From positions 1 through 26,294 of the IMG/VR virus record IMGVR_UViG_3300008113_000659: a stretch of 26,294 nt of DNA. One strand, written 5' to 3'. The position numbers and the translations under genes are program-made. The notes beneath the pieces are model-generated. The model was given only the letters and a program-made list of their open reading frames with translations. It did not search any database and was not told the DNA's origin. Every line of letters begins with the position of its first letter. Positions within the stretch are counted from its first letter, which is position 1. This DNA is from a virus. Of this stretch, positions 8,014 to 26,294 are shown one piece after another.

Positions 8014-11000
8014 TAGTTGTTTCCTGCGCTAGTAATGCTTTGTTGACTATTTGTTGTGATCAAATACGATATTGCACCGTTGCTCTTAATCCTACTTGCT
8101 GTAACAGCTGAAATTATTTCAATGTCGTCAACTGTAGCTCCATTAATAAAAATTTGATCTTTTTCTGATTTAATTTCAAATAAACTACCAAACGTAAGAT
8201 CTGATTGTTTAGGAACTATTAAGAAGTTTGCAAGATTTGGTGCAAGTCTATTCATAACATACGTTGATAGTTCAGTAAAATAAAAATTATCCCCAAAGTC
8301 CCAGTTTTCTAAAGCAAAGAATTCGTTTATTGCTGAAAGAACTTTTGCTTTAATATCATTATCACTGATTACTACTTCAGGGTTTTTTACAACCTTAAAC
8401 GAAGATTGTAAATCTATACTGGCTGTAGAACCAAACAATACTTTATATCTCACCGGATGATAAATTATTTCGTCTGATACTGATTTAATTTTATTAAGTT
8501 CTGTAGATAACATATTATATAAAAAGTCTGTGCTTGGCGGCATAGGCTCTTCTTCAATGCTATTGTTTAGCCACTGTCTAAAAGATTCGTCGTAGTCTTT
8601 AGTTAGAACAAAAATATCAATAATATTTGTTAAACCTGGGTCAATTCTTGATTCGTAATCTGCATTATGAATATACTGAAATTTAATACTATCTCGGCCT
8701 TGATAAACTTTATAATCTAAAGACACTTCAAATGCACCAGTTGTCTTATTCAATCTTTTAACAGTATTAGTATCTATAAAGTAAAAATACTGACCGTCAA
8801 CTTCACTATTAACACTTACAACTGATTGACTTGTTCTAATTTTAACTATCTCTGACGAATTATCAACCCATCTGTAATCTTCTTGATTTTGAGATAGTTG
8901 ATAAAGTTCTTGAACAATATACTTGTTTGTAGGATTTATTGTAGGTGCAACAGTTTCTTCAAAGAGGTTAGGATTATCAACAACGCTGTCATCATCACTG
9001 TCAGCAAATGTTAATTGAATTTTTTTAGTATCAACATAGCCATCAATACCTCTAAATTCTTCTGTTATTTCCCATTCTTTATCATAGGTAAAAGGAATAG
9101 TTAAATCTGGTTCTATGTTTATACTTAAAATTTTTATCTTGTCTTTTACTACAACATTTGACCTAGTGTCATAAATTTTATCGCTAGCATCAAAATAAAA
9201 TCTTAATTGTTTGTCGCTTTCAAAAATATACCGCATTAATCTTGACCTAACAGTATAAAACTCAGTATCTGTAGTAAACAAAATTAACCAACTTGAATCT
9301 AATTGTTGATTAGAAATGTCTCCTTGCTTGCCTAGATTAAAAGAATTAGCAGTATCTAAATTAACTTCAAACACAATCTTCCATGCTCGTGATTCAACAT
9401 CATAACGTAGACCAAATGGTTTATTTGAAAATACTAGATCTACCATAGTGCTAACAGTGTTAGTATCAATTGTTGCTCTAAAAGCAGGAATAATCTGTTT
9501 AATGATCGATCCCGTTGGAATAATGTCGTTTAACACTACAGGGCCAGAGCCGTCTGTAAGAATTCCTGTTAGATTATTTGTACCGTCACCGTATACAGAA
9601 ACTACTTTACACCAAAGTGTAGTACTAGAATTGTAAGGTTTAAGCTGCCCTGATAAGACTGTTTCAATAGTGTTATCATTGCCTAAATCAAAATATTCAG
9701 TTGCGGGATTAGGCACTTCAAATTGAATAAGAGCACCCGGAGTCATAAAACGCAACACCGTACTTGTATAAGTTCCAGTCTTATAAGGTGTTAAGGGAGC
9801 ACCGGGAGTATTGTCAGCAATAAAACCAGTTGACTGATTTGTTTCACTTGTACGGGCAAACCATTTTACGTTTAACGATTCTGTAGCAATACGAGTAAAT
9901 TTTGAATAGTAAAAATCTCGTAATTGTTTTGATTTTAAAATTTCTACAACATTATTATAAATGACTGCTTCAATATCTGTTTTAGTATTATAATTAAATC
10001 TAAAACTGTCAGTATATTCTTCTTTGAATAAAACACCGTCATCAGCAAACAAATTTGTTTTACTGTATTTGCCAGTTGGGTCAACTAGATCAAAATAACG
10101 ACTAATACCACTAGCTGTACGATTTACTGATTTAATTTTAATAACTTGTTGATTTACATTTAAAGGACTAATGTTATAATCCTCGCCAGTAATCATTCTA
10201 TTTTGAGTATAATAGGTAGCTGGAGCATTAGCTTTGATAGAATCATTTGATTCAGGCTCTGAAGAGTTAGCTACAGAATTTGTTAAGCTTACAGTAACAG
10301 ATAAAGTTTCAAACTGATTTAAATTTGAAACGTAAGGAATATCAATTGTAACGTTTCTTATGTCCCTAGGATTAATTGTATACGTTACACCAGCACTTTG
10401 TCTGTAATATATTCTAAAATTACCTCTAGGTAAAGTTCCAAAAACGCCATCACTAAACCCTAAACTAACAGCATCATTAGTTCTAGAAATAACAGTATAA
10501 ATGTTCCTAATGTTTTTCTTTAAACTATTATAAATTGTATTATTGCCTTCTAAGGCAGAAATCTTTGCCCAGTACTCAGATTCTAAATTTTGACTATCTA
10601 ATTTGTAAAGCCATACATCATCATTATTAATATTAAAAGCATTAATATCAATAATTTCATTACTACTAGGTTGATCAATAGTAAAAGCACCTTGACTTAA
10701 AATGCCCTGTTTAAAATGTACGAAAAATCCAGTATTAGAACTACCGTTTCCTTTACCATCATTTCGGTATATGAAAGCCATACGATTGCCTACCGCAGGT
10801 GGTTCTTCGTAGATATATTCTTGATCTTTAAAAGTGCTTGATACAATTTCAAACTGTAAATTTCTACCATCTACTGACTTAGTAAATGAGTAAACTGGTA
10901 CATCAGTATTACTAGCTTGAAATCTATATTGTTCTGTAGGTATACCATAGATTATACCTTTATCGTCAGGGTTACCAAATTGTCGCGTGGCGGGAAGTGC

Positions 11001-11486
11001 TGCATTTATAACTTTAATAAATTGATCATACCAATTTGGATTACTAGGGTCATTCCATTGTACTGTTTGGCCTGAAAGATTTTTACCATTGCTATCATAA
11101 ACAACTTGACTAGTGTTTACAGTTACAAACTTTAATAGTCCGCTAGCAGCAATATTTCTTTTAGCGTTATAACTTAGCAGTTGTGCTAATCTTAGTACAC
11201 TTTCTCTACGCTCTGCTAATTCTAAAAAGTTATCTCTAGCATTAAGATCTATACGGAAGGCTAAGCTTTGACCTAAAAATGCAATAAGGTCGATAAGAGC
11301 TAGGTACTCACTTGATTCGATATAATCATTAAAATCTTCTGGATAGTTTTCACGAATATAACTAACCATAACTCTGCGTAGATTTTCAAAATCGTAACTT
11401 TGAAAATCTGCATTTCGGAAACTTTGATAGATACGTTTCCAGTCTTCTGCTACCAGCAGTCTATTTTGTCTATCAGTTGTTGACAT
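8013..11486 (-). CDS. gp6: Baseplate wedge subunit gp6
   Basis: 1157 residues from the ATG at 11486 (MSTTDRQNRLL). An upstream in-frame TTG at 11498 is less likely, because GGGAAG lies just before the ATG as a ribosome binding site. The conserved N-terminal block (EDWKRIYQSF, then ENYPEDFNDYIESSEYLALI, then GQSLAFRIDLNARDNFLELA, residues about 15-95) is characteristic of gp6 in marine T4-like phages. gp6 dimers form the ring that joins baseplate wedges and drive the hexagon-to-star change on host contact. T4 gp6 is about 660 residues, so this protein is nearly twice as long; the extra length is mostly central beta-rich sequence. It lies between gp25 and the giant structural gene, matching the 25-6-7 order of wedge genes. 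It is preceded by two TAAATAC elements that may be its own late promoters. Confidence 0.93.
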   Translation of the reverse strand: MSTTDRQNRLLVAEDWKRIYQSFRNADFQSYDFENLRRVMVSYIRENYPEDFNDYIESSEYLALIDLIAFLGQSLAFRIDLNARDNFLELAERRESVLRLAQLLSYNAKRNIAASGLLKFVTVNTSQVVYDSNGKNLSGQTVQWNDPSNPNWYDQFIKVINAALPATRQFGNPDDKGIIYGIPTEQYRFQASNTDVPVYSFTKSVDGRNLQFEIVSSTFKDQEYIYEEPPAVGNRMAFIYRNDGKGNGSSNTGFFVHFKQGILSQGAFTIDQPSSNEIIDINAFNINNDDVWLYKLDSQNLESEYWAKISALEGNNTIYNSLKKNIRNIYTVISRTNDAVSLGFSDGVFGTLPRGNFRIYYRQSAGVTYTINPRDIRNVTIDIPYVSNLNQFETLSVTVSLTNSVANSSEPESNDSIKANAPATYYTQNRMITGEDYNISPLNVNQQVIKIKSVNRTASGISRYFDLVDPTGKYSKTNLFADDGVLFKEEYTDSFRFNYNTKTDIEAVIYNNVVEILKSKQLRDFYYSKFTRIATESLNVKWFARTSETNQSTGFIADNTPGAPLTPYKTGTYTSTVLRFMTPGALIQFEVPNPATEYFDLGNDNTIETVLSGQLKPYNSSTTLWCKVVSVYGDGTNNLTGILTDGSGPVVLNDIIPTGSIIKQIIPAFRATIDTNTVSTMVDLVFSNKPFGLRYDVESRAWKIVFEVNLDTANSFNLGKQGDISNQQLDSSWLILFTTDTEFYTVRSRLMRYIFESDKQLRFYFDASDKIYDTRSNVVVKDKIKILSINIEPDLTIPFTYDKEWEITEEFRGIDGYVDTKKIQLTFADSDDDSVVDNPNLFEETVAPTINPTNKYIVQELYQLSQNQEDYRWVDNSSEIVKIRTSQSVVSVNSEVDGQYFYFIDTNTVKRLNKTTGAFEVSLDYKVYQGRDSIKFQYIHNADYESRIDPGLTNIIDIFVLTKDYDESFRQWLNNSIEEEPMPPSTDFLYNMLSTELNKIKSVSDEIIYHPVRYKVLFGSTASIDLQSSFKVVKNPEVVISDNDIKAKVLSAINEFFALENWDFGDNFYFTELSTYVMNRLAPNLANFLIVPKQSDLTFGSLFEIKSEKDQIFINGATVDDIEIISAVTASRIKSNGAISYLITTNSQQSITSAGNN

Positions 11487-17381: not shown

Positions 17382-18215
17382 ATGACAACACCACCTAAAG
17401 TTAACTACTTAAACAACAAAGATTTATTAGAAGAAATACATAAAAGTAAAGTAACTTACTGTAGCTTTACTCAACCAGAATATCATAGATATGATATTAT
17501 TCTTCCTAATATCGACAAAATTAATATTAGAACTATTGCTGAAGCTAAACGAGCACAGGCTAAAAGATTAAGCCAAAAAGCTTTTGAAGCTCGTAAAGCG
17601 GCTGGTGAAAAAATTAAAGCTAGTGAATGCGAAATTGATTACAAAAAAATCGGCAAGCAAGACTTAGTGTTTAGGATTATGACATTTGATCATATTCCAC
17701 TAAACAACACTAGAAAAAAGAATCCAAAAACAGTAGCTGACCATAGAGACAAAGTTAATTTTCCTCCTTTCCAACACTGGAAATTTGATGAAAACGATAT
17801 TTTAGTATGTGTGGGCAAAAGCCACTGGCGTGGACCAGTAGACAAAGGCAAATTTAGCAAGGATCACGGGCAAATTACCAACACACTAGCCCGTATGTAC
17901 ATTAAATTATGCGAAAGATATGCTACAAGAGGTAATGTTCGTGGGTATACTTACAACGATGAAATGCGAGGGCAGGCAATTTTACAGCTTACTCAAATTG
18001 GTTTACAGTTCGATGAAAGTAAATCGGACAATCCTTTTGCTTATTTTACTGCCGCCGTTACTAACAGTTTTGTTAGAATCATTAACATAGAAAAGCGCAA
18101 TCAAGTTATTCGTGACGATCTTCTAGAAATTAATGGTATGAATCCTAGTTATACTAGAATGGGAGAAGGCGAACATGCGGCTGCAATGAAAAGAAACGAA
18201 AGTTCTGATGATTGA
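17382..18215 (+). CDS. gp55: Late-transcription sigma factor gp55
   Basis: 277 residues against 185 in T4. The C-terminal half matches the gp55 family: NTLARMYIKLCERYATRG (about 167-184), the DEMRGQAILQL helix (193-203), and FAYFTAAVTNSFVRIINIEK (219-238), which corresponds to sigma region 2, with VIRDDLLEINGMNPSYTR at the end. gp55 replaces host sigma on RNA polymerase and directs it to TATAAATA late promoters. The added N-terminal and middle part (about 30-160) is Lys-rich. I see no obvious hydrophobic clamp-binding tail; the protein ends in NESSDD. It has no Shine-Dalgarno sequence and is probably translated from a leaderless mRNA. It opens the rightward unit that contains the gp47/46 nuclease. 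Confidence 0.93.
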   Translation: MTTPPKVNYLNNKDLLEEIHKSKVTYCSFTQPEYHRYDIILPNIDKINIRTIAEAKRAQAKRLSQKAFEARKAAGEKIKASECEIDYKKIGKQDLVFRIMTFDHIPLNNTRKKNPKTVADHRDKVNFPPFQHWKFDENDILVCVGKSHWRGPVDKGKFSKDHGQITNTLARMYIKLCERYATRGNVRGYTYNDEMRGQAILQLTQIGLQFDESKSDNPFAYFTAAVTNSFVRIINIEKRNQVIRDDLLEINGMNPSYTRMGEGEHAAAMKRNESSDD

Positions 18216-18263: not shown

Positions 18264-19274
18264 ATGAGTTTATTTAAAAAAGTAGCCTGTTTCACAGACA
18301 TACACTTCGGACTTAAATCAAATAGTCAAACACACAATCAAGACTGCGAAGAATTTGTAGACTGGTTTATTAAGCAGGCAAAATTTCACGGCTGTGACAC
18401 CGGTATGTTTTTAGGAGACTGGCATCACAATCGCAACAGTCTTAATATTACTACTATGGATTATAGCCTTAGGGCTTTAGAAAAACTAGGAAAAGCATTT
18501 GATCAATTTTACTTCTTTCCCGGTAATCACGATTTGTATTACAAAGACAAACGTGACATCCATAGTGTAGAATTTGGCAAATACATTCCTGGTATTAACA
18601 TAGTATCTAAACCAGAAACTATAGATGAAGTTACCATGTGTCCATGGTTAGTTGGCGACGAGTGGAAGTCTGTAGGCAAGAAAAACAGCAGGTATATCTT
18701 TGGTCACTTTGAATTACCGCAGTTTATGATGAATGCCATGGTACAGATGCCAGATCACGGTGAAATTCAACTAGAACACTTTACTGGATATGAGCTAGGA
18801 TTTAGCGGGCACTTCCATAAGCGACAGCAAAAAAAGAACATGTGCTATATTGGTAATGCATTTCCTCATAACTATGCAGATGCGTGGGATGACAATCGAG
18901 GTATGATGATTATGGATTGGGGTTCTGATCCCATGTATATTGATTGGCCAGGCTGTCCTAAGTTTAGAACATTAAAACTAAGCGAACTAATTGATAATGC
19001 TGATAAATTATTAACCAGTAAGATGCATCTTAGAGTAAGCTTGGATATTGATATCAGTTACGAAGAAGCTAACTTTATTAAAGAAAACTTTATCAATAGT
19101 TACGATATTCGAGAACTTACTCTTATACCAGAAAAGAAAGAAGTAGAAATTAACACTGATATTGATATTAAAGCATTCGAAAGCGTAGATCAGATTGTAA
19201 GTAATCAATTAGTTAATCTACAAGTAGGATCATTTGATCCTAAAGTTCTACTTAATATCTACAATAACTTATGA
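18264..19274 (+). CDS. gp47: Recombination endonuclease subunit gp47 (Mre11/SbcD-like)
   Basis: 336 residues from the ATG at 18264, after a GGAG site; an in-frame TTG at 18222 is rejected because the protein then starts before the conserved fold. The calcineurin-like phosphoesterase motifs are all present: D12-I-H14, G51-D52-W-H-H, G87-N88-H89-D90, H148 in FGHFE, and H183-F-H185 in FSGHFHKRQ. These residues bind the two metal ions of the nuclease. With gp46 it resects DNA ends to feed recombination-dependent replication and helps degrade host DNA. Its stop overlaps the gp46 start (ATGA), which favours balanced synthesis of the two subunits. Confidence 0.95.
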   Translation: MSLFKKVACFTDIHFGLKSNSQTHNQDCEEFVDWFIKQAKFHGCDTGMFLGDWHHNRNSLNITTMDYSLRALEKLGKAFDQFYFFPGNHDLYYKDKRDIHSVEFGKYIPGINIVSKPETIDEVTMCPWLVGDEWKSVGKKNSRYIFGHFELPQFMMNAMVQMPDHGEIQLEHFTGYELGFSGHFHKRQQKKNMCYIGNAFPHNYADAWDDNRGMMIMDWGSDPMYIDWPGCPKFRTLKLSELIDNADKLLTSKMHLRVSLDIDISYEEANFIKENFINSYDIRELTLIPEKKEVEINTDIDIKAFESVDQIVSNQLVNLQVGSFDPKVLLNIYNNL

Positions 19275-21052
19275 GCATTAAACTAAAAGAATTAACTGTA
19301 AAAAACTTTATGAGTGTGGGTAATCAAACCCAGGCAGTAAACTTTGGCAGAGAACAACTAACTTTAGTATTAGGTGAAAATTTAGATCAAGGTGGAGATG
19401 ACAGCGGAAGCCGCAATGGTACAGGTAAAACAACTATTGTTAATGCTTTAAGTTATGCTCTTTATGGTCAAGCACTGACTAATATTAAAAAAGATAACTT
19501 AATTAATAAGATTAACAATAAAAACATGTTAGTTACACTAAGTTTCGAAAGAAGCGGTACAAAATATCGTATCGAACGAGGGCGTAAACCAACTGTAATG
19601 AAATTTTTTGTTGATGATAAAGAACAATCAATTGACGATCAAGACGATAGTCAAGGCGATTCTCGAGAAACACAAAAAGATATTGACCTATTGTTAGGCA
19701 TGAGCCATACAATGTTTCAAAACATTGTAGCGTTGAATACCTATACTGTTCCTTTTCTTAGCATGAAAGCTAATGAACAGCGTGAAATTATTGAGCAGTT
19801 ACTAGGTATTACTCTTTTAAGTGAAAAAGCAGAAACTTTAAAAGAACAGGTTCGTCGTACCAAAGATCAAATACAACAAGAAACTGCTGACATTGAGGCT
19901 GCTAAAAAGTCTAATGAGCGTATACAGCAAAGTATTACTGGTTTAGAAACTAAACAGAACGCTTGGCGCAAGCAACAGTCAACCGATTTAGAAAAACTAG
20001 CTAGTAGTATACTAGAATTAAAAGATGTTGATATTGAAAAAGAATTAGAACAACATGCTAAACTAAAAAATTACGACGAGCTATCTGCTAAAATTAAAAG
20101 TCTTAATAAAGAAAAAGCAACACTTGAAACTGCTATTACACAAGCAGATAAACAAGTTGACAAATATAAGAAAGCAGTTGAAGAGCTCAAAAATAATACT
20201 TGCCCCAGTTGTAAACAAGGGGTGCATACACATACACATGAAGAAATGACTGCCGAAGCTGAAAAAAATCTAGCAGATGCATTTGTGTATTTGCAAGGAA
20301 TTTCAGATAGCTATACTACTGTTGTACAAGAGTTAACCGAAATAGGCGATATTAACGGTCGGCCTAAAACATTTTATGAGACAGTAGAGGAAGCTCTCAA
20401 GCATCAAAATAATTTAACTACCTTAGAAGCTGCACTTCTTAAACGTAGTGAAGAAACAGATCCCTATCAAGAACAAATTGACGAATTACAAAACACTGCT
20501 ATTCAAGAGATTAGCTGGAATAAAATTAATGAGTTAACTGTATTAAAAGATCACGAAGAATTTTTATTAAAGTTGTTAACTAACAAAGATAGTTTTATTC
20601 GTAAAAAGATTATTGATCAAAACTTAGCCTACTTAAACAATAGGCTTACATACTATCTTGACAAGATGGGATTACCGCATCAAGTGAGTTTCTTAAATGA
20701 TTTAAATGTTGAGATTACACAATTAGGTCAAGATTTAGATTTTGATAATCTGTCAAGAGGAGAACGTAACAGACTTATATTAGGTTTAAGTTGGGCGTTT
20801 AGAGATGTATGGGAAAGTTTATATCAAAACATCAATCTGTTGTTCATTGACGAATTAGTTGATAACGGATTAGATGCAGCTGGTGTAGAAAATGCGCTTG
20901 GAGTATTAAAAAAGATGGCTAGAGAAAGAAATAAAAACATTTATCTTATCAGTCACAAAGACGAACTTATTGGTCGTGTTAACAATGTACTTAAAGTTAT
21001 TAAAGAAAACGGATACACCAGTTACGCAAACGATATTGAAATAGAAGAATGA
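19271..21052 (+). CDS. gp46: Recombination endonuclease ATPase subunit gp46 (Rad50/SbcC-like)
   Basis: 593 residues, similar to T4 gp46 (560). The Walker A region spans G35-E-N through N49-G-T-G-K-T-T55, with a loop lengthened by a GGDDSGS insertion. Two coiled-coil arms flank a zinc hook, C311-P-S-C314. The ABC signature is LSRGERNRL (494-502), Walker B is LLFIDE ending at D527-E528, followed by a D-loop NGLDAAG, and the H-loop ISHKDE lies near the C-terminus. It is the ATPase that opens and positions DNA for gp47. A short HTHTH follows the hook. It overlaps gp47 by four bases and the next gene by four bases. Confidence 0.96.
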   Translation: MSIKLKELTVKNFMSVGNQTQAVNFGREQLTLVLGENLDQGGDDSGSRNGTGKTTIVNALSYALYGQALTNIKKDNLINKINNKNMLVTLSFERSGTKYRIERGRKPTVMKFFVDDKEQSIDDQDDSQGDSRETQKDIDLLLGMSHTMFQNIVALNTYTVPFLSMKANEQREIIEQLLGITLLSEKAETLKEQVRRTKDQIQQETADIEAAKKSNERIQQSITGLETKQNAWRKQQSTDLEKLASSILELKDVDIEKELEQHAKLKNYDELSAKIKSLNKEKATLETAITQADKQVDKYKKAVEELKNNTCPSCKQGVHTHTHEEMTAEAEKNLADAFVYLQGISDSYTTVVQELTEIGDINGRPKTFYETVEEALKHQNNLTTLEAALLKRSEETDPYQEQIDELQNTAIQEISWNKINELTVLKDHEEFLLKLLTNKDSFIRKKIIDQNLAYLNNRLTYYLDKMGLPHQVSFLNDLNVEITQLGQDLDFDNLSRGERNRLILGLSWAFRDVWESLYQNINLLFIDELVDNGLDAAGVENALGVLKKMARERNKNIYLISHKDELIGRVNNVLKVIKENGYTSYANDIEIEE

Positions 21053-21288: not shown

Positions 21289-21732
21289 ATGCTATGGACA
21301 TATCAAGATCAACAAGTAGAAGAAATACCAGAAGGCTATATTGGCTTTGTTTATTTGATTACTAATCTCACAACCGGGCAAAAGTACATAGGCAAAAAAC
21401 TTGCACAATTCAAACGTACTAAACCACCACTCAAAGGCAAAAAATTAAAACGCAGAAGCACAGTAGAAAGCGATTGGCGCGATTATTGGAGCAGTTCTGA
21501 TAGGCTCAATGCAGATGTCCAAACACTAGGTCCGGAAAAATTTACAAGAGAAATACTTTATTACTGCAAATCTAAGGCAGAAATGTCATATCTAGAGGCA
21601 AGAGAACAATTTGAACGTAGAGTTCTTGAAACAGATGAATACTATAATGGTATTATCAACTGTAGAATCGGTGGTTCAAATGTACTAAGGCAACGCCTAC
21701 AAGAACAATCACAGGCAAAATCAAACGGTTAA
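21289..21732 (+). CDS. GIY-YIG domain nuclease, Seg-like
   Basis: 147 residues, starting three bases after the previous stop. The N-terminus has the paired motif G19-F-V-Y22 and Y33-I-G35 (GFVYLITNLTTGQKYIGKK), then a basic segment (KPPLKGKKLKRRST) and W-R-D-Y-W, with an E-rich helix AREQFERRVLE near the end that could supply the catalytic glutamate. GIY-YIG nucleases make nicks or double-strand breaks. In T4-like phages such single-domain copies (Seg family) are free-standing homing endonucleases, or have been kept for a phage role. There is no intron nearby and no obvious DNA-binding C-terminal repeat. A non-homing role with gp46/47 is possible. Confidence 0.85.
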   Translation: MLWTYQDQQVEEIPEGYIGFVYLITNLTTGQKYIGKKLAQFKRTKPPLKGKKLKRRSTVESDWRDYWSSSDRLNADVQTLGPEKFTREILYYCKSKAEMSYLEAREQFERRVLETDEYYNGIINCRIGGSNVLRQRLQEQSQAKSNG

Positions 21733-21772
21733 AGCAAGCGTCAGCTAATTTCGGACGCCCAAATCCTCGGTG

Positions 21773-22021
21773 ATGTCGCGGGGTAAGGAAATCTCTCGCC
21801 GTTGTGAGTTTATAGCAACTATCCTTTACAGGACGATGTTCGGATATGCCTACATACAACCGGATTTGCTATACAAGAAAATTTTAAAAAGGCTAAAAGA
21901 GGGAGAAAAACCCGCGGCTATACTTGTGTTAGCGTACATTTATAGACCCGCCGTTGTGATAAAGACTCAGCTCGTGGTACCGGACAACCGCCACTGTAAT
22001 GCTACTGAACAATCTAGATAA
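21773..22021 (+). CDS. Putative small protein, unknown function (may be non-coding)
   Basis: 82 residues from the ATG at 21773; a GTG immediately before it is an alternative. No clear ribosome binding site is seen. The product (MSRGKEISRRCEF, then LYRTMFGYAYIQPDLLYKK, LKEGEKPAAILVLAYIYRPA) is basic with alternating aromatic and aliphatic residues and reads like a protein rather than random sequence. Its codons are much more GC-rich than those of its neighbours (TCG, CGG, CGC, CCC, GCG), which suggests recent acquisition. The alternative is a structured non-coding RNA. It follows the GIY-YIG gene by 40 bases, in the same direction. Confidence 0.4.
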   Translation: MSRGKEISRRCEFIATILYRTMFGYAYIQPDLLYKKILKRLKEGEKPAAILVLAYIYRPAVVIKTQLVVPDNRHCNATEQSR

Positions 22022-22079: not shown

Positions 22080-22099
22080 AGAAGAACGTAAGTTCTTCT
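22080..22099 (+). terminator. Terminator-like hairpin ahead of the late gene
   Basis: AGAAGAAC, a GTAA loop (GNRA-type), then GTTCTTCT: an 8-base-pair perfect stem followed by TTAAT. The T-run is short, so termination may be partial. It sits between the rightward unit started by the gp55 promoter and the late gene at 22117, and would limit early read-through into that gene. Confidence 0.5.
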
Positions 22100-22101
22100 T
22101 T

Positions 22102-22109
22102 AATAAATA
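22102..22109 (+). promoter_or_regulatory. Late promoter (AATAAATA) abutting the next start codon
   Basis: Matches TATAAATA at 7 of 8 positions. It ends 7 bases before the ATG at 22117, so the expected +1 is within two bases of the start codon. No Shine-Dalgarno sequence lies between. It begins 3 bases after the terminator-like hairpin. Confidence 0.6.
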
Positions 22110-22116
22110 TAAAACT

Positions 22117-23457
22117 ATGAAAGTTTACGAAGTTCTCGAGAAAAAACAAATTAATGAAGCACTTCCTATTATTGGGGGTATTGGATTAGGTGGAATTTTG
22201 ACTGCTATCTCTATTGGAATAGCAGCATGGAGTGCCTATGATGTATATAATTTTATTAAGAAATATAACGAGGATCCTGAAAAAATCACTGATGAGGAAT
22301 GGGAAGAACTTTTTATAGATGCTATACTGATGTTTACTCCTGGATTTTTAAAATTAGGCAGAGCAGGTGTAGCAAAAATAGTTCCAAAAGCTGCTAAGAC
22401 TAAAGGCGGCAAGTGGTTAAGAAGTAAGATTAACAAAAGATATGCAGAAGTAACTGCAAAAAGAGCTGCTAGAGGCAAATACAGTATTAAAGGTCTTACA
22501 GGCAAACAAAGAACTGAAATGTTGGCCAAACGTGCAGCAGCTTCAAAAACAGCCGCGGCAGCAGGTGCAGCAGCATTAAGTGCAAATGCCGCTGTAGCAG
22601 GATTAATCCGAACTCTTGGTCTAGGTGCAGTTATTGGAAATTATCTAATACAGATTGCAGCTATTGAAGAAGATTTTGTAGAGTTGCGAGATTCGTTGAG
22701 TTCCGGAAAAGAAGTTTCAGAAGATAACATTTTTAAAGGCATGTCATTTGAAGAAGCTAAGGAACAAGGTCAAAACTTGCGTCAAGACCTACTAGGAGAA
22801 GCAGCCCTACAAATGGTTGGACTAGGATTAGCAGGTAGAATTATAGGAGCTTTAGGTAAATTTGCAAACCTATTTGGCATTATAGGGCAAGTGTTTGGCA
22901 GACCGTTGCAGTTTGCAGGATGGCTAGCTACTTTAGGCAGTGGTGCAAAAATGACTGCGGTAAAGACTGCTCTTACAGCATGGTTTAGCACAGAGTCAGG
23001 TCAAGAATGGCTTAAACAATTTGCAATTGGGTTAGCATTGATATCTGCAGGTCAGTGGGCTAAGTCTAACCTAGGTCCTATTATGAGCTGGTCTGCAGAT
23101 ATTATTGTTAAACTGTTAGACGAGGCATTAGCATATATTTCAGAAAAAACAGGTATACCTTTAAGTGTTCCTGATGCTGCAAAGTCTCCATTTTCGCCTA
23201 TATCTCCAGATCAAGCTACTAAGGATGTAGAAGATGAAAGAGCAGCAAATGTTAAATTTGTAGGAGGTGTTCCTGCTACTACAGGTGACGGCTATCTACG
23301 AAATGATAGAGCATTTTGGCTTACACCTAATTTAGGTATTATAGCAAGACGAAATGCAAATAATAATAAACCTCATCCCTTACAAGGTTTACCGTTAAAT
23401 CCTAAATTAACATACCCTAGTGATCTAATGGCTAAAGTTGGATTTACACCTAGTTAA
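22117..23457 (+). CDS. Probable packaged internal head protein, hydrophobic, unknown function
   Basis: 446 residues. The N-terminus MKVYEVLEKKQINE|ALPI resembles the T4 capsid-targeting peptide of internal proteins (MKTYQEFIAEA), and I12-N-E14|A15 fits the (I/L)-x-E cut site of the T4 prohead protease. Two more matches are L226-G-E|A and L334-D-E|A. After the first site comes a glycine-rich hydrophobic stretch (15-48), then an acidic helix (NEDPEKITDEEWEE), a basic Ala-rich region (100-165), further hydrophobic segments (about 160-185, 232-275, 302-312) and a Pro-rich tail. It may be ejected with the DNA and act at the host membrane. This is inference; no enzyme motif is visible. The stop overlaps the convergent minus-strand stop within TTAA. 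No upstream in-frame start exists after the TAG at 22069. Confidence 0.75.
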   Translation: MKVYEVLEKKQINEALPIIGGIGLGGILTAISIGIAAWSAYDVYNFIKKYNEDPEKITDEEWEELFIDAILMFTPGFLKLGRAGVAKIVPKAAKTKGGKWLRSKINKRYAEVTAKRAARGKYSIKGLTGKQRTEMLAKRAAASKTAAAAGAAALSANAAVAGLIRTLGLGAVIGNYLIQIAAIEEDFVELRDSLSSGKEVSEDNIFKGMSFEEAKEQGQNLRQDLLGEAALQMVGLGLAGRIIGALGKFANLFGIIGQVFGRPLQFAGWLATLGSGAKMTAVKTALTAWFSTESGQEWLKQFAIGLALISAGQWAKSNLGPIMSWSADIIVKLLDEALAYISEKTGIPLSVPDAAKSPFSPISPDQATKDVEDERAANVKFVGGVPATTGDGYLRNDRAFWLTPNLGIIARRNANNNKPHPLQGLPLNPKLTYPSDLMAKVGFTPS

Positions 23458-23675
23458 AGAAAATTCATACCGCTTTTCTTTGTAGCTTCGATATTTTCTT
23501 TGATAATATGATTTAAGATCATTCTGTCTTCGTAAGAGTACAGGTAAAATAGATCTTTGCTATCTACTCCGCCTCGCATATACCAACTAATTCTAAAAAT
23601 CTCGTCTTTTAAATTTTTGGCGTCTTGTTCTAGATTTTTTACAGTGTTTTCAATCTCATCTGCGGAGAGGAACAA
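23454..23675 (-). CDS. Small hub-assembly protein/frameshift extension of gp26 (gp51-like position)
   Basis: 73 residues if started at the TTG at 23675; the frame is open up to the gp26 slippery site at 23687. It lacks an ATG before residue 33, and the only Shine-Dalgarno-like match (AAGG) is too close to the TTG. It is therefore probably made mainly as a -1 frameshift extension of gp26. The content is helical: FLSADEIENTVKNLEQDAK, a conserved-looking RISWYMRGGV at 28-37, and IIKENIEATKKSG. I associate this short protein downstream of gp26 with what marine T4-like phages annotate as gp51 (hub assembly), but the identification is by position and weak memory. The stop overlaps the convergent gene by four bases. 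Confidence 0.7.
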   Translation of the reverse strand: MFLSADEIENTVKNLEQDAKNLKDEIFRISWYMRGGVDSKDLFYLYSYEDRMILNHIIKENIEATKKSGMNFL

Positions 23676-23680
23676 GAGCC

Positions 23681-24505
23681 TTATGCGAAAAAATTACTTT
23701 GATCTACCTGTACTGTAATAGAATTTTCTTTACCGCATGAAGAACACATAACGGGTTGTGATGGAATATTCCAAGTTTCTTTATTTTGTTCTAATTTTTC
23801 TTTGATAATTTTGTAATTTTCTCTGTCAGTATTACGCAAATATTCTTCAATAAATGCTTTGTCAGTGACCATAACACCGTCAGCTTGAACATTTTCAATA
23901 CTGGTTAAGAATAATTGTAATTGTAACTCTGAAAGAGTTTTATAAATCTCATCAATTTGTTTTTGTCTTTGATCTTCTGGAAGTTCACCGGTTTGATACA
24001 ATGTTTTTTGTAATTTAAAGTTTTCAATACTGAAATAGGTCATTTCTTCGTATTGTAAAGGTCGTACACTAATAGTTAACCCTTCCATGACTTGAATTTG
24101 ACTAACATACTTTAAAGAACTAAAGTAATCGATTAACTTAGTAAGTTCAATTTCGTATTCATTTTCTGCATCGCAATGCTTACAGTTTTGCGATATAGTC
24201 ATTTTTTCACCAAATGTTGCAATTCTAATTGCAACTAATAAAGCATCTATATCGATAGTAGGCATTAACTTAGCATTTGTTACATAAGGACAGCAACTTT
24301 CAATAACTTTAGCAGTGGCTTCTCCGCTGAATAAAGCATCTGGAGTTTTCATTATGATTTCATCCATACCACTCATGGCAAAAATAGGAACATTACTCCA
24401 GTCTCCTTGAAGAGCACCAGGTTCGTAATAAATGCCCTTACTTGGTAATGAGACATAGAGTTTTGGTTGTCTAAAAAATCTTTGTAACGGGTTATTTCCT
24501 GTCAT
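23681..24505 (-). CDS. gp26: Baseplate hub protein gp26 (T4 baseplate family)
   Basis: 274 residues. Typical features are LPSKGIYYEPG (20-30), MSGMDEIIMKTPDALFSGEA (44-63), a cysteine pair C108-K-H-C111 and a second pair C254-S-S-C257, which together form a likely zinc ribbon, and the helical middle (PLQYEEMTYFSIENFK). In T4, gp26 is needed to assemble the central hub. The ATG is 27 bases downstream of a perfect late promoter. The last codons carry a slippery run that joins the next frame. The gene pair lies beside the probable tape-measure gene, the classic position for tail-assembly chaperones, so gp26 may be a non-structural assembly factor here. Confidence 0.9.
   Translation of the reverse strand: MTGNNPLQRFFRQPKLYVSLPSKGIYYEPGALQGDWSNVPIFAMSGMDEIIMKTPDALFSGEATAKVIESCCPYVTNAKLMPTIDIDALLVAIRIATFGEKMTISQNCKHCDAENEYEIELTKLIDYFSSLKYVSQIQVMEGLTISVRPLQYEEMTYFSIENFKLQKTLYQTGELPEDQRQKQIDEIYKTLSELQLQLFLTSIENVQADGVMVTDKAFIEEYLRNTDRENYKIIKEKLEQNKETWNIPSQPVMCSSCGKENSITVQVDQSNFFA
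23687..23693 (-). promoter_or_regulatory. Putative -1 ribosomal frameshift site (T_TTT_TTC)
   Basis: At the end of gp26 the zero-frame codons are AAT TTT TTC GCA TAA. The heptamer T TTT TTC fits the X_XXY_YYZ rule, and slipping back one base allows near-perfect re-pairing (TTT TTT). The -1 frame then reads CGC ATA AGG CTC TTG and runs without a stop through the 73-residue frame, giving a predicted fusion of 350 residues. An AGGT about 13 bases upstream could act as a stimulatory Shine-Dalgarno element. Confidence 0.6.
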
Positions 24506-24564: not shown

Positions 24565-26294
24565 ATGTCATTAACTACAGCAGATGCTCAACTTATTGCA
24601 AGTGAGATAGCAAAATCTTTAAAAATAGCAGGAGTTACCGGAACAGGCGGTAAAGGCAGTAGCACCGGTCCTGCTCCAGGCTCATCTGGATCTTCTATAG
24701 GCGATTTAACTAAATCAGGTAAAGGACTAACAGACGGTTTTGACACTCTTAAAGATGTTGTAGGTCAAGCAAAAATACAATATACAAATCTTTCACAAGT
24801 TATCCAGGATAATCTTAATACATGGAGAGATTTAAGCAAGGTAGGTGCTAGTTTTAGCAATGATATTGTTGCAATGCGTGCCGCCGCCGCTGGCGCACGA
24901 CTAGACGTTGGAGAATTTGCAGGAGTTATTAAAGAAAATTCTGCTTCAATGACAGGCTTTGGTGGCGATGTTAGTAAAGGTGCAGAAAATTTTGCCAAAG
25001 CTAGCAAAAGAATGTTTGACGAACTTGGTCCAGTTACTGATCAACTTCGTCAAATGGGATACACAAACAAAGATCTCAATGATATTTTAGCTCTAACTAA
25101 TGTATCATCAAGAGCAAAATTTGCAGACGATGACTCAAGAAGTAAAGCATTAACTGAAAACGCCACTGCTCTAGCTAGAGAAATGGACTTAATGGCCAAA
25201 CTCACTGGTAAGACTAGAGAAGAACAAATGGCACAGATGCGTAAAAATAATGCAGACATGGCATTCGAAGCTGCTCTAAGAGCTAAAATGATGGAGATTG
25301 ATGATCCAGCTAAACGAGCAGAGTTTGAAAAGAACGCTAGAGCACAGTTAGCAGAGGCACAGAATCGAGGCCAGGGGCAGATGTTTAAAGAAGTATTTGC
25401 TACCGGACAGATACTGAGTAAAGAAGCTGCACAACAAGCATCTCTAATGGGAGAACAGTCTCGAAATACCATGCGAGCTGCTCAAGTCAGTGCTAATACT
25501 CAAATGGATAGTGCTGAAAGAGAAAAGCAAGCAACTGATGCTCAAATAGCAGCTAGAAGTGCATTTAATAACGACATGCAAAACAAACAAGTCCTGTTAA
25601 TGGCTTCAATGGGAGACACATCTGGTGCAGTTGGTAAAACATTTAGAGATAGCATGTCAGCTCAAATGGATTATCAAAGAGGTCTTGAAGGAGTTGCTGC
25701 TGCAAATAAATTAGATCTAAGTGATAAAGCACAATTAGCAAAAGCTCAGCAATTATATAGAGAACAAGCAGAAAAAGGTCAACAGGGTGTTAAAGAAAAC
25801 GGTGACCAAACTAATGCTGCTACTAAAGCTATAATTAATTTAGGTGCTAGAACTGCAGATGTTGAAAGTGCATTCTTTAACAAATTAGTTGTACCTCTTA
25901 ACGAAAAAGTTAATCCAGCATTGACTAAACTTGCTGACGGTGCATTAGGTGCTACTAAAGTTGGTACTCAAGAAACATTTGTTCAAGGCATTGAAAAACA
26001 ATTAGAAAAAGGATTTTCAGGAGCAAAAGATGCAGCTGGTCCTATAGCAGGATTAGGAAAAGCAGCATCAACTGCTGCTGATGCTCTATTAAAATTAGCA
26101 GGAATTCAACCAGCAGCTGGAGGACAACCGGCAGCACAAGCACCGAGAAGAAATACTGGTAGTTTAGGAGCTACAGGTAACCTGTTTGAAAATTTTGGAG
26201 AAGGTACACTAGTAGAATTACATGGCCTAGAAAGTGTCATGCGTCCAGATGATTTAAAGAAAGTTGTACAGTCATCAATGAGTGGCATGACTAG
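24565..26294 (+). CDS. Probable tail tape-measure protein (gp29-like), 3' end outside window
   Basis: 576 codons are visible before the right edge, open in one frame. The N-terminus MSLTTADAQLIASEIAKSL is followed by a Gly/Ser/Pro-rich linker (about 25-50), a long helical Ala/Gln/Lys/Glu-rich region (60-420) with little hydrophobic structure, then Ala/Gly-rich segments. Near the visible end, residues about 539-566 contain FENFGEGTLVELHGLESV, matching the GTxxxLHGxEAV ending common to tape-measure proteins of tailed phages. T4 gp29 is 590 residues. Tape-measure proteins set tail length and leave with the DNA. Position next to gp26 on the opposite strand supports the tail role. A weak GGAA site precedes the ATG. 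Gene 29 identity is inferred, not proven. Confidence 0.75.
   Translation, partial: MSLTTADAQLIASEIAKSLKIAGVTGTGGKGSSTGPAPGSSGSSIGDLTKSGKGLTDGFDTLKDVVGQAKIQYTNLSQVIQDNLNTWRDLSKVGASFSNDIVAMRAAAAGARLDVGEFAGVIKENSASMTGFGGDVSKGAENFAKASKRMFDELGPVTDQLRQMGYTNKDLNDILALTNVSSRAKFADDDSRSKALTENATALAREMDLMAKLTGKTREEQMAQMRKNNADMAFEAALRAKMMEIDDPAKRAEFEKNARAQLAEAQNRGQGQMFKEVFATGQILSKEAAQQASLMGEQSRNTMRAAQVSANTQMDSAEREKQATDAQIAARSAFNNDMQNKQVLLMASMGDTSGAVGKTFRDSMSAQMDYQRGLEGVAAANKLDLSDKAQLAKAQQLYREQAEKGQQGVKENGDQTNAATKAIINLGARTADVESAFFNKLVVPLNEKVNPALTKLADGALGATKVGTQETFVQGIEKQLEKGFSGAKDAAGPIAGLGKAASTAADALLKLAGIQPAAGGQPAAQAPRRNTGSLGATGNLFENFGEGTLVELHGLESVMRPDDLKKVVQSSMSGMT

Follow-up and report, generated by a model that had tools for sequence, protein, structure and literature searches.

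The locus described here raises the question whether a gene in an uncultured giant phage, lying next to the baseplate gene gp26, encodes a protein that travels inside the head and enters the host with the DNA. A first-pass annotation of the window (the whole stretch of DNA analysed, a viral metagenome fragment of 26,294 bases) had proposed such a protein from its N-terminus, and added a membrane channel as a possible function and two internal cleavage sites. Comparison with relatives leads us to consider it probable that the product is a late protein, which is targeted to the head by its leader, trimmed by the prohead protease, packaged, and injected like the internal proteins IPI-III and Alt of phage T4. 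The modular leader, its motif at residue 14, the protease gene, the late-promoter pattern and the occurrence of the leader on unrelated proteins speak for this part of the proposal, while the channel and the internal cuts are not supported.

Phage type and gene order

The gene content of the window is that of a T4-related jumbo phage, and its source is an uncultured distant relative of RaK2, PA5oct and Atu_ph07, belonging to a large, abundant freshwater group of giant phages without cultured members. Minus-strand baseplate proteins come first, followed by gp55, gp47, gp46, a 78-aa ORF, a 147-aa gene, the 446-aa ORF under study, a 73-aa ORF and gp26 (both on the minus strand) and a tape-measure-like gene (Table 1). 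The nearest cultured relatives of gp46 and gp26 are found in PA5oct, Atu_ph07, Phosso, RaK2 and CBB/121Q-like jumbo phages, all at less than 50% identity, and the gene order around the locus is similar in them. The gp46 of a related contig (L001, 5772-7607) contains an 18-residue tandem duplication (YALNTYTVPFLSMKANEQ), which is missing in the window and in contig L002 and is either real or an assembly artefact.

Table 1. Features of the locus, in window coordinates unless another contig is named.
Feature	Position	Strand	Basis or remark
gp55-like late sigma factor	17382..18215	+	phrog_12791, E 7e-79
gp46/SbcC-like recombination endonuclease subunit	19271..21052	+	phrog_77, E 9e-105
147-aa gene, upstream slot boundary	21289..21732	+	GIY-YIG/phrog_447-like
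Structured RNA, Rfam RF01718 (Polynucleobacter-1)	21733..21874 (match); covarying structure to about 21996	+	
Hairpin GAAGAAC-GTAA-GTTCTTC	22081..22098	+	directly before late promoter
Late-promoter-like AATAAATA	22102..22109	+	7 nt before ATG
Leader-tagged, basic, mostly helical 446-aa protein (predicted late gene)	22117..23457	+	ORF; homologues in same slot
14-residue leader MKVYEVLEKKQINE	22117..22158	+	leader family of slot proteins; most conserved region
N-terminal leader segment MKVYEVLEKKQINEA			
Predicted prohead-protease site I12-N-E14|A15	22150..22161	+	Glu14 conservation; motif enrichment
Hydrophobic Gly-rich helix, residues 18-36, at predicted mature N-terminus	22168..22224	+	KD 2.04 (19-residue mean)
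73-aa ORF, downstream slot boundary	23454..23675	-	conserved in clade
gp26-like baseplate hub protein	23681..24505	-	phrog_150, E 7e-19; matches in RaK2, PA5oct, Atu_ph07
Tape-measure-like virion protein	24565..26292	+	cut by window end
gp21-type S77 prohead protease	L002 11666-12184		PF03420, E 2e-25; phrog_207, E 1e-57

The 446-residue protein and its cleavage motifs

The ORF opens with an ATG, no earlier in-frame start follows the preceding stop, and the N-terminus of the protein reads MKVYEVLEKKQINE|ALPIIGGIG. Exactly three [IL]xE[AG] motifs occur in it, INE|A at 14, LGE|A at 228 and LDE|A at 336, so that ORF, leader and motifs are present as the annotation had described them. Taken alone the three motifs are weak evidence: the count in this protein is within chance (three seen against 1.14 expected, P=0.10 by shuffling), as is one motif within the first 30 residues (P=0.065). 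The leader and the site at residue 14 become significant because of the comparison with relatives, and the same comparison removes the sites at 228 and 336. Searches of Pfam, PHROG, NCBIfam and PDB with the 446-aa protein returned no relative and nothing credible. In cultured phages, tblastn with the whole protein or its first 112 residues found no homologue, and the C-terminal 63 residues of a homologue gave two insignificant matches.

The slot and its conserved leader

Searches of viral contigs for portal and gp26 yielded 160 loci, some of them from the same contigs, in which we define the slot as the interval that starts after the 147-aa gene (or gp46) and ends before the 73-aa ORF or gp26. 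Nearly every informative locus has one main slot ORF, usually of 140-600 aa, and sometimes several. After collapsing at 60% identity, 81 non-redundant slot proteins remained, 70 of which start with M[KNR][IVLAFM]x[DEQ][IVLTAF][ILVMFT], as against 26 of 1736 other genes from the same loci. The consensus by column is M-K-[IV]-Y-[ED]-I-[IL]-S-E, i.e. MK[IV]YEIISE. An [ILVM]xE motif ends at residue 9 in 49 of these 70 leaders and at residue 14 or 15 in 28, where 0.67 per position would be expected from the rest of the proteins. On a profile of leaders from outside its own family the window leader scores 13.1 bits, a value reached by 8 of 1837 first-ATG ORFs drawn from five large contigs. Two loci (L038 and L039) have no ORF in the slot, and the gene is therefore dispensable in some phages.

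The close family of the window protein comprises nine proteins from the same slot (L126, L127, L022, L131, L115, L114, L110, L117 and L021) with 22-36% identity to it. Average identity is 50% in the leader and 22-28% in all other regions; Lys2 and Glu14 are each kept in 9 of the 10 sequences, with INE|A, INE|V, LNE|A, LNE|V, IDE|G and VDE|I as cut ends. Homologues lacking leader and cut site had been named as the finding that would speak against the annotation, and the homologues retain both (leader in 70 of 81, Glu14 in 9 of 10). The same relatives dispose of the two internal sites. Residue 228 lies in a conserved RxxLLG helix ("LLGE"), but the Glu itself varies (E, Y, M, K or Q) and the position is therefore not a cut site; the motif at 336 is not kept either.

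A rapidly diverging body and the membrane question

With iterated profiles, the majority of slot proteins fall into a single family that diverges fast and shares a hydrophobic helical core and an AWFSTxxGxxWL-like motif, although caution is due for the later iterations, which were run on a small database. About 16 further slot proteins form a second group, which has the leader alone in common with the main family: when the profiles of the two cargo groups are compared, the aligned columns (10 and 17) all fall within the leader, which is therefore modular. The body of the slot protein diverges very fast, and some relatives have a different body altogether behind the same leader in the same slot. 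We interpret a constant leader and slot with a fast-evolving or replaced body as what one would expect of a locus whose internal proteins are injected and face the host.

The median net charge of the family is +8. AlphaFold2 reached a mean pLDDT of 56 with 10 sequences and of 68 with 56 sequences; the body is modelled as helical, at low to middling confidence overall, with helices 169-235 and the C-terminal 376-446 confident. Foldseek with this model returned no match at E below 1, so that no fold was assigned, and a second look with VIA yielded nothing better than middling matches to helical bundles (Z up to 5.9).

The hydrophobic stretch that the annotation placed directly after the cut is indeed there (Table 1), and a strong helix at the predicted new N-terminus is what would be expected of a membrane-inserting ejection protein that helps to form a channel for DNA entry in the host inner membrane. 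An equivalent helix after the cut occurs only in L126, L127 and L022, thus in four sequences including the window protein and in none outside the closest subgroup, and in 26 of 53 family members no segment exceeds KD 1.6. A channel as the function of the whole family is rejected on hydropathy. Likewise, no credible match to a channel or ejection-protein fold was obtained, which is weak evidence given the poor model. We therefore regard this reading as improbable for the window protein, and a channel as at best a speciality of the closest subgroup. Within the preferred reading of an injected internal protein, the cut would expose the hydrophobic helix in the window phage and its closest relatives, where the protein may touch the inner membrane of the host.

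The leader on other genes

With a stringent DNA pattern for the leader, several large contigs show a second or third gene that carries it. The leader profile, applied to five contigs (about 1 Mb), places 12 N-termini above threshold, four of which are slot genes, while 200 column-permuted control profiles found a mean of 0.39 N-termini and none reached 12. The annotation had suggested a search for the same leader on other proteins of the genome, and in large relatives further genes do carry it. Chance alone as the origin of the leader is ruled out by the slot counts, the motif enrichment and the permuted-profile scan.

Among the proteins concerned, one of 346 aa above threshold has a kinase-like Gly-rich loop, recognised by eye, and no Pfam match, and one of 265 aa has a weak PARP/ADP-ribosyltransferase match and a leader below threshold. 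In L196 two adjacent genes (9178-9972 and 9988-11025, both on the minus strand) have leader-like starts, one with a weak PARP/ADP-ribosyltransferase match and the other with a kinase-like glycine loop. A 607-aa protein, likewise above threshold and encoded from 5051 onward on the plus strand of L212 (equivalent to G011 39050), combines the leader MKILDIITE with HAD/polynucleotide-kinase-like and GH19 lysozyme domains; its basic C-terminus resembles a 63-aa leader-like protein of G001.

A cultured relative provides a further instance. The gp67-like protein of PA5oct (YP_010678881.1), whose record is marked as structural by ESI-MS/MS, starts MKINDIITE|G like the slot proteins and scores 22.8 on the clade leader profile. 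Unlike the slot genes, it is 73 aa long and its gene adjoins the portal, outside the gp46-gp26 slot. We consider the leader-bearing genes elsewhere as leads for the idea of a delivery tag, not as proof of it.

Prohead protease and head module

A cleavable leader would call for a prohead protease, and the annotation had pointed to a search for its gene elsewhere in the genome. PF03420 has no match in the window's own 26 kb record, which is uninformative since the record is a fragment. Contig L002, whose slot protein is 98% identical at the amino-acid level, reaches beyond the window end and there encodes a tape-measure-like protein, the portal (Portal_T4, E 2e-112), a 79-aa gp67-like protein, a 194-aa protein, an acidic core protein and a gp21-type S77 protease (Table 1). 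The gene is thus found in a near-identical contig. The order in the clade is T4-like: portal, gp67-like, core, gp21, scaffold, gp23.

The scaffold-like protein of relatives has 12-19 motifs of the type [ILVM]xE followed by a small residue, and gp23 comes next. The gp23 of the clade shows Y-L-x-E|(S,T,P,A,N) at the expected propeptide border, kept in nearly all sequences. The gp23 motif suggests that the protease of the clade tolerates several small residues after Glu.

Late-promoter pattern and expression

TAAATA, the core of the T4 late promoter, occurs in the 60 nt preceding each of the first slot genes (56/56), and a stable hairpin precedes it in 51 of the 56 loci. The same hexamer stands before gp26 (92/104), tape-measure (60/75), core (65/72) and gp67-like genes (82/91), and is practically absent before the early genes gp46, gp47, gp55 and those for the 147-aa, 78-aa and 73-aa proteins (0-1%). 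From this distribution, the slot gene is most probably expressed late, from a promoter of its own. In the window (22102-22116) and several relatives the promoter ends a few nt before the ATG and there is no evident Shine-Dalgarno sequence; the mRNA may be nearly leaderless.

The neighbours gp26 and the tape-measure-like gene share this type of late promoter, as would be expected if the slot protein were associated with the tail or baseplate and its conserved N-terminus were a docking helix for a tail partner that is never cut. We give this reading very little credence: the leader ends in an LxE-type motif that the gp23 of the clade keeps, and leaders of a similar kind are carried by proteins elsewhere in the genome that do not belong to the tail, as well as by the gp67-like head protein of PA5oct.

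Proposed role and comparison with T4

In T4, a 10-residue N-terminal capsid-targeting sequence directs internal proteins into the prohead, where it is removed by gp21, and the proteins leave with the DNA (PMC9026906, PMC3012670, PMC9391042, PMC5694885; capsid-targeting sequence: Mullaney and Black 1996, as cited in PMC9026906 and PMC3012670). Among these proteins, IPI* acts as an inhibitor of the restriction enzyme GmrSD, IPIII is required on E. coli ECOR17, and RNA polymerase is modified by Alt (PMC9026906, PMC3012670, PMC9391042, PMC5694885). By analogy, a gp55-type late sigma factor would turn the slot gene on from its own TAAATA promoter, as the sequence pattern indicates. The MK[IV]YEIISE-type leader would then attach the protein to the prohead's scaffold core, as the T4 targeting sequence does, and the S77 protease would cut INE|A after Glu14, as conserved motifs suggest for gp23 and scaffold. 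Finally, the basic mature protein would be packaged among the DNA and would enter the host together with it.

The likeness to T4 lies in the organisation more than in the letters. The window leader shares the MK-x-Y start and the [IL]xE|A end with IPI, IPII, IPIII and Alt, and this part of the parallel drawn by the annotation stands; its length agrees only loosely, with 14 residues against the 10 of MKTYQEFIAE (NC_000866), and the clade core MK[IV]YEIISE differs. T4 internal-protein leaders range over 10-19 residues (PMC9026906). On the clade profile the T4 leader scores -5.0 ungapped (77 of 1837 N-termini equal or better) and 4.7 with one residue skipped (29 of 1837, many of them clade leaders), a sequence likeness that we rate as modest. 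Other shared features are a leader on unrelated bodies, basic and hypervariable mature proteins, a gp21-type protease and a T4-like head gene order. By contrast, IPII and IPIII have 100-193 aa and the window body 446 aa, no sequence relation of the bodies was found, and T4 has ip loci where the clade has one fixed slot beside gp26. The ejection proteins of SPN3US and phiKZ (PMC5694885) are likewise giant-phage head proteins with N-terminal propeptides that are cut by the prohead protease, and are packaged with the DNA. Several of those propeptides exceed 100 residues and the phiKZ-type protease belongs to MEROPS S80, in contrast to the short leader and T4-type S77 protease of the window phage.

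Several points count against an injected internal protein, namely the poor score of the T4 leader on the clade profile, the Val at P1' in some homologues, the lack of a slot ORF in L038 and L039, and the presence of mostly one leader gene per slot, lying among tail genes, which would fit a structural role. Such a role could be that of a prohead core or inner-head protein, which is targeted and trimmed and then stays in the head or is degraded, without injection; its near-universal presence with one gene per slot in most loci, and a late promoter like that of the core genes, would agree with it. The body, in turn, diverges very fast or is replaced and is basic, the gene is absent in L038 and L039, and T4 core proteins have many cut sites while the internal sites here are not conserved. 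We judge this structural role to be unlikely.

Beyond the preferred reading of the slot protein itself, we raise tentatively, and with more doubt than conviction, the idea that the leader is a general tag for packaging and injection in the clade, carried by a hypervariable slot gene behind a structured RNA and elsewhere by ADP-ribosyltransferase-like, kinase-like and HAD-plus-GH19-lysozyme proteins. If this were true, the injected effectors of phages that have never been grown could be read off from the tag. A tag predicting head-packed, early-delivered proteins would allow candidate injected effectors to be listed from metagenomic giant-phage contigs. Such lists would include counter-defence proteins, a class of which only a few examples are known in T4, and the idea of capsid targeting would be carried over from T4 to an abundant freshwater group that has no cultured members.

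Structured RNA upstream of the slot gene

The Polynucleobacter-1 RNA was described in 2010 from Burkholderiales and from freshwater and estuary sequences (PMC2864571). Its match in the window scores 74.6 bits (E 5e-16, gathering score 37) over model positions 1-141 of 141, and 13 other loci of the clade have a match above the gathering score too. Throughout the clade the RNA keeps its position directly upstream of the slot, also in L038 and L039, which have no slot gene. In an alignment of 34 loci, covarying helices run far past the Rfam model, up to roughly position 264, and include a short closing helix; the RNA of the clade is thus about 264 nt long, about twice the 141-nt model. An ORF at 21770-22021 overlies the structured RNA and was judged spurious. 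The RNA is more likely a transcript of its own than the 5' leader of the slot gene, because the hairpin and the late promoter separate the two.

A scan of a genome collection for the RNA found one MAG contig labelled Bacteroidetes, with gp26, part of the RNA and no slot gene; the label was not taken as evidence for the host. Rfam RF02980 (freshwater-2 RNA) lies downstream of gp23 in the clade (L048 16018-16094, L038 16457-16528, L091 16391-16468), and a second orphan environmental RNA is therefore phage-borne.
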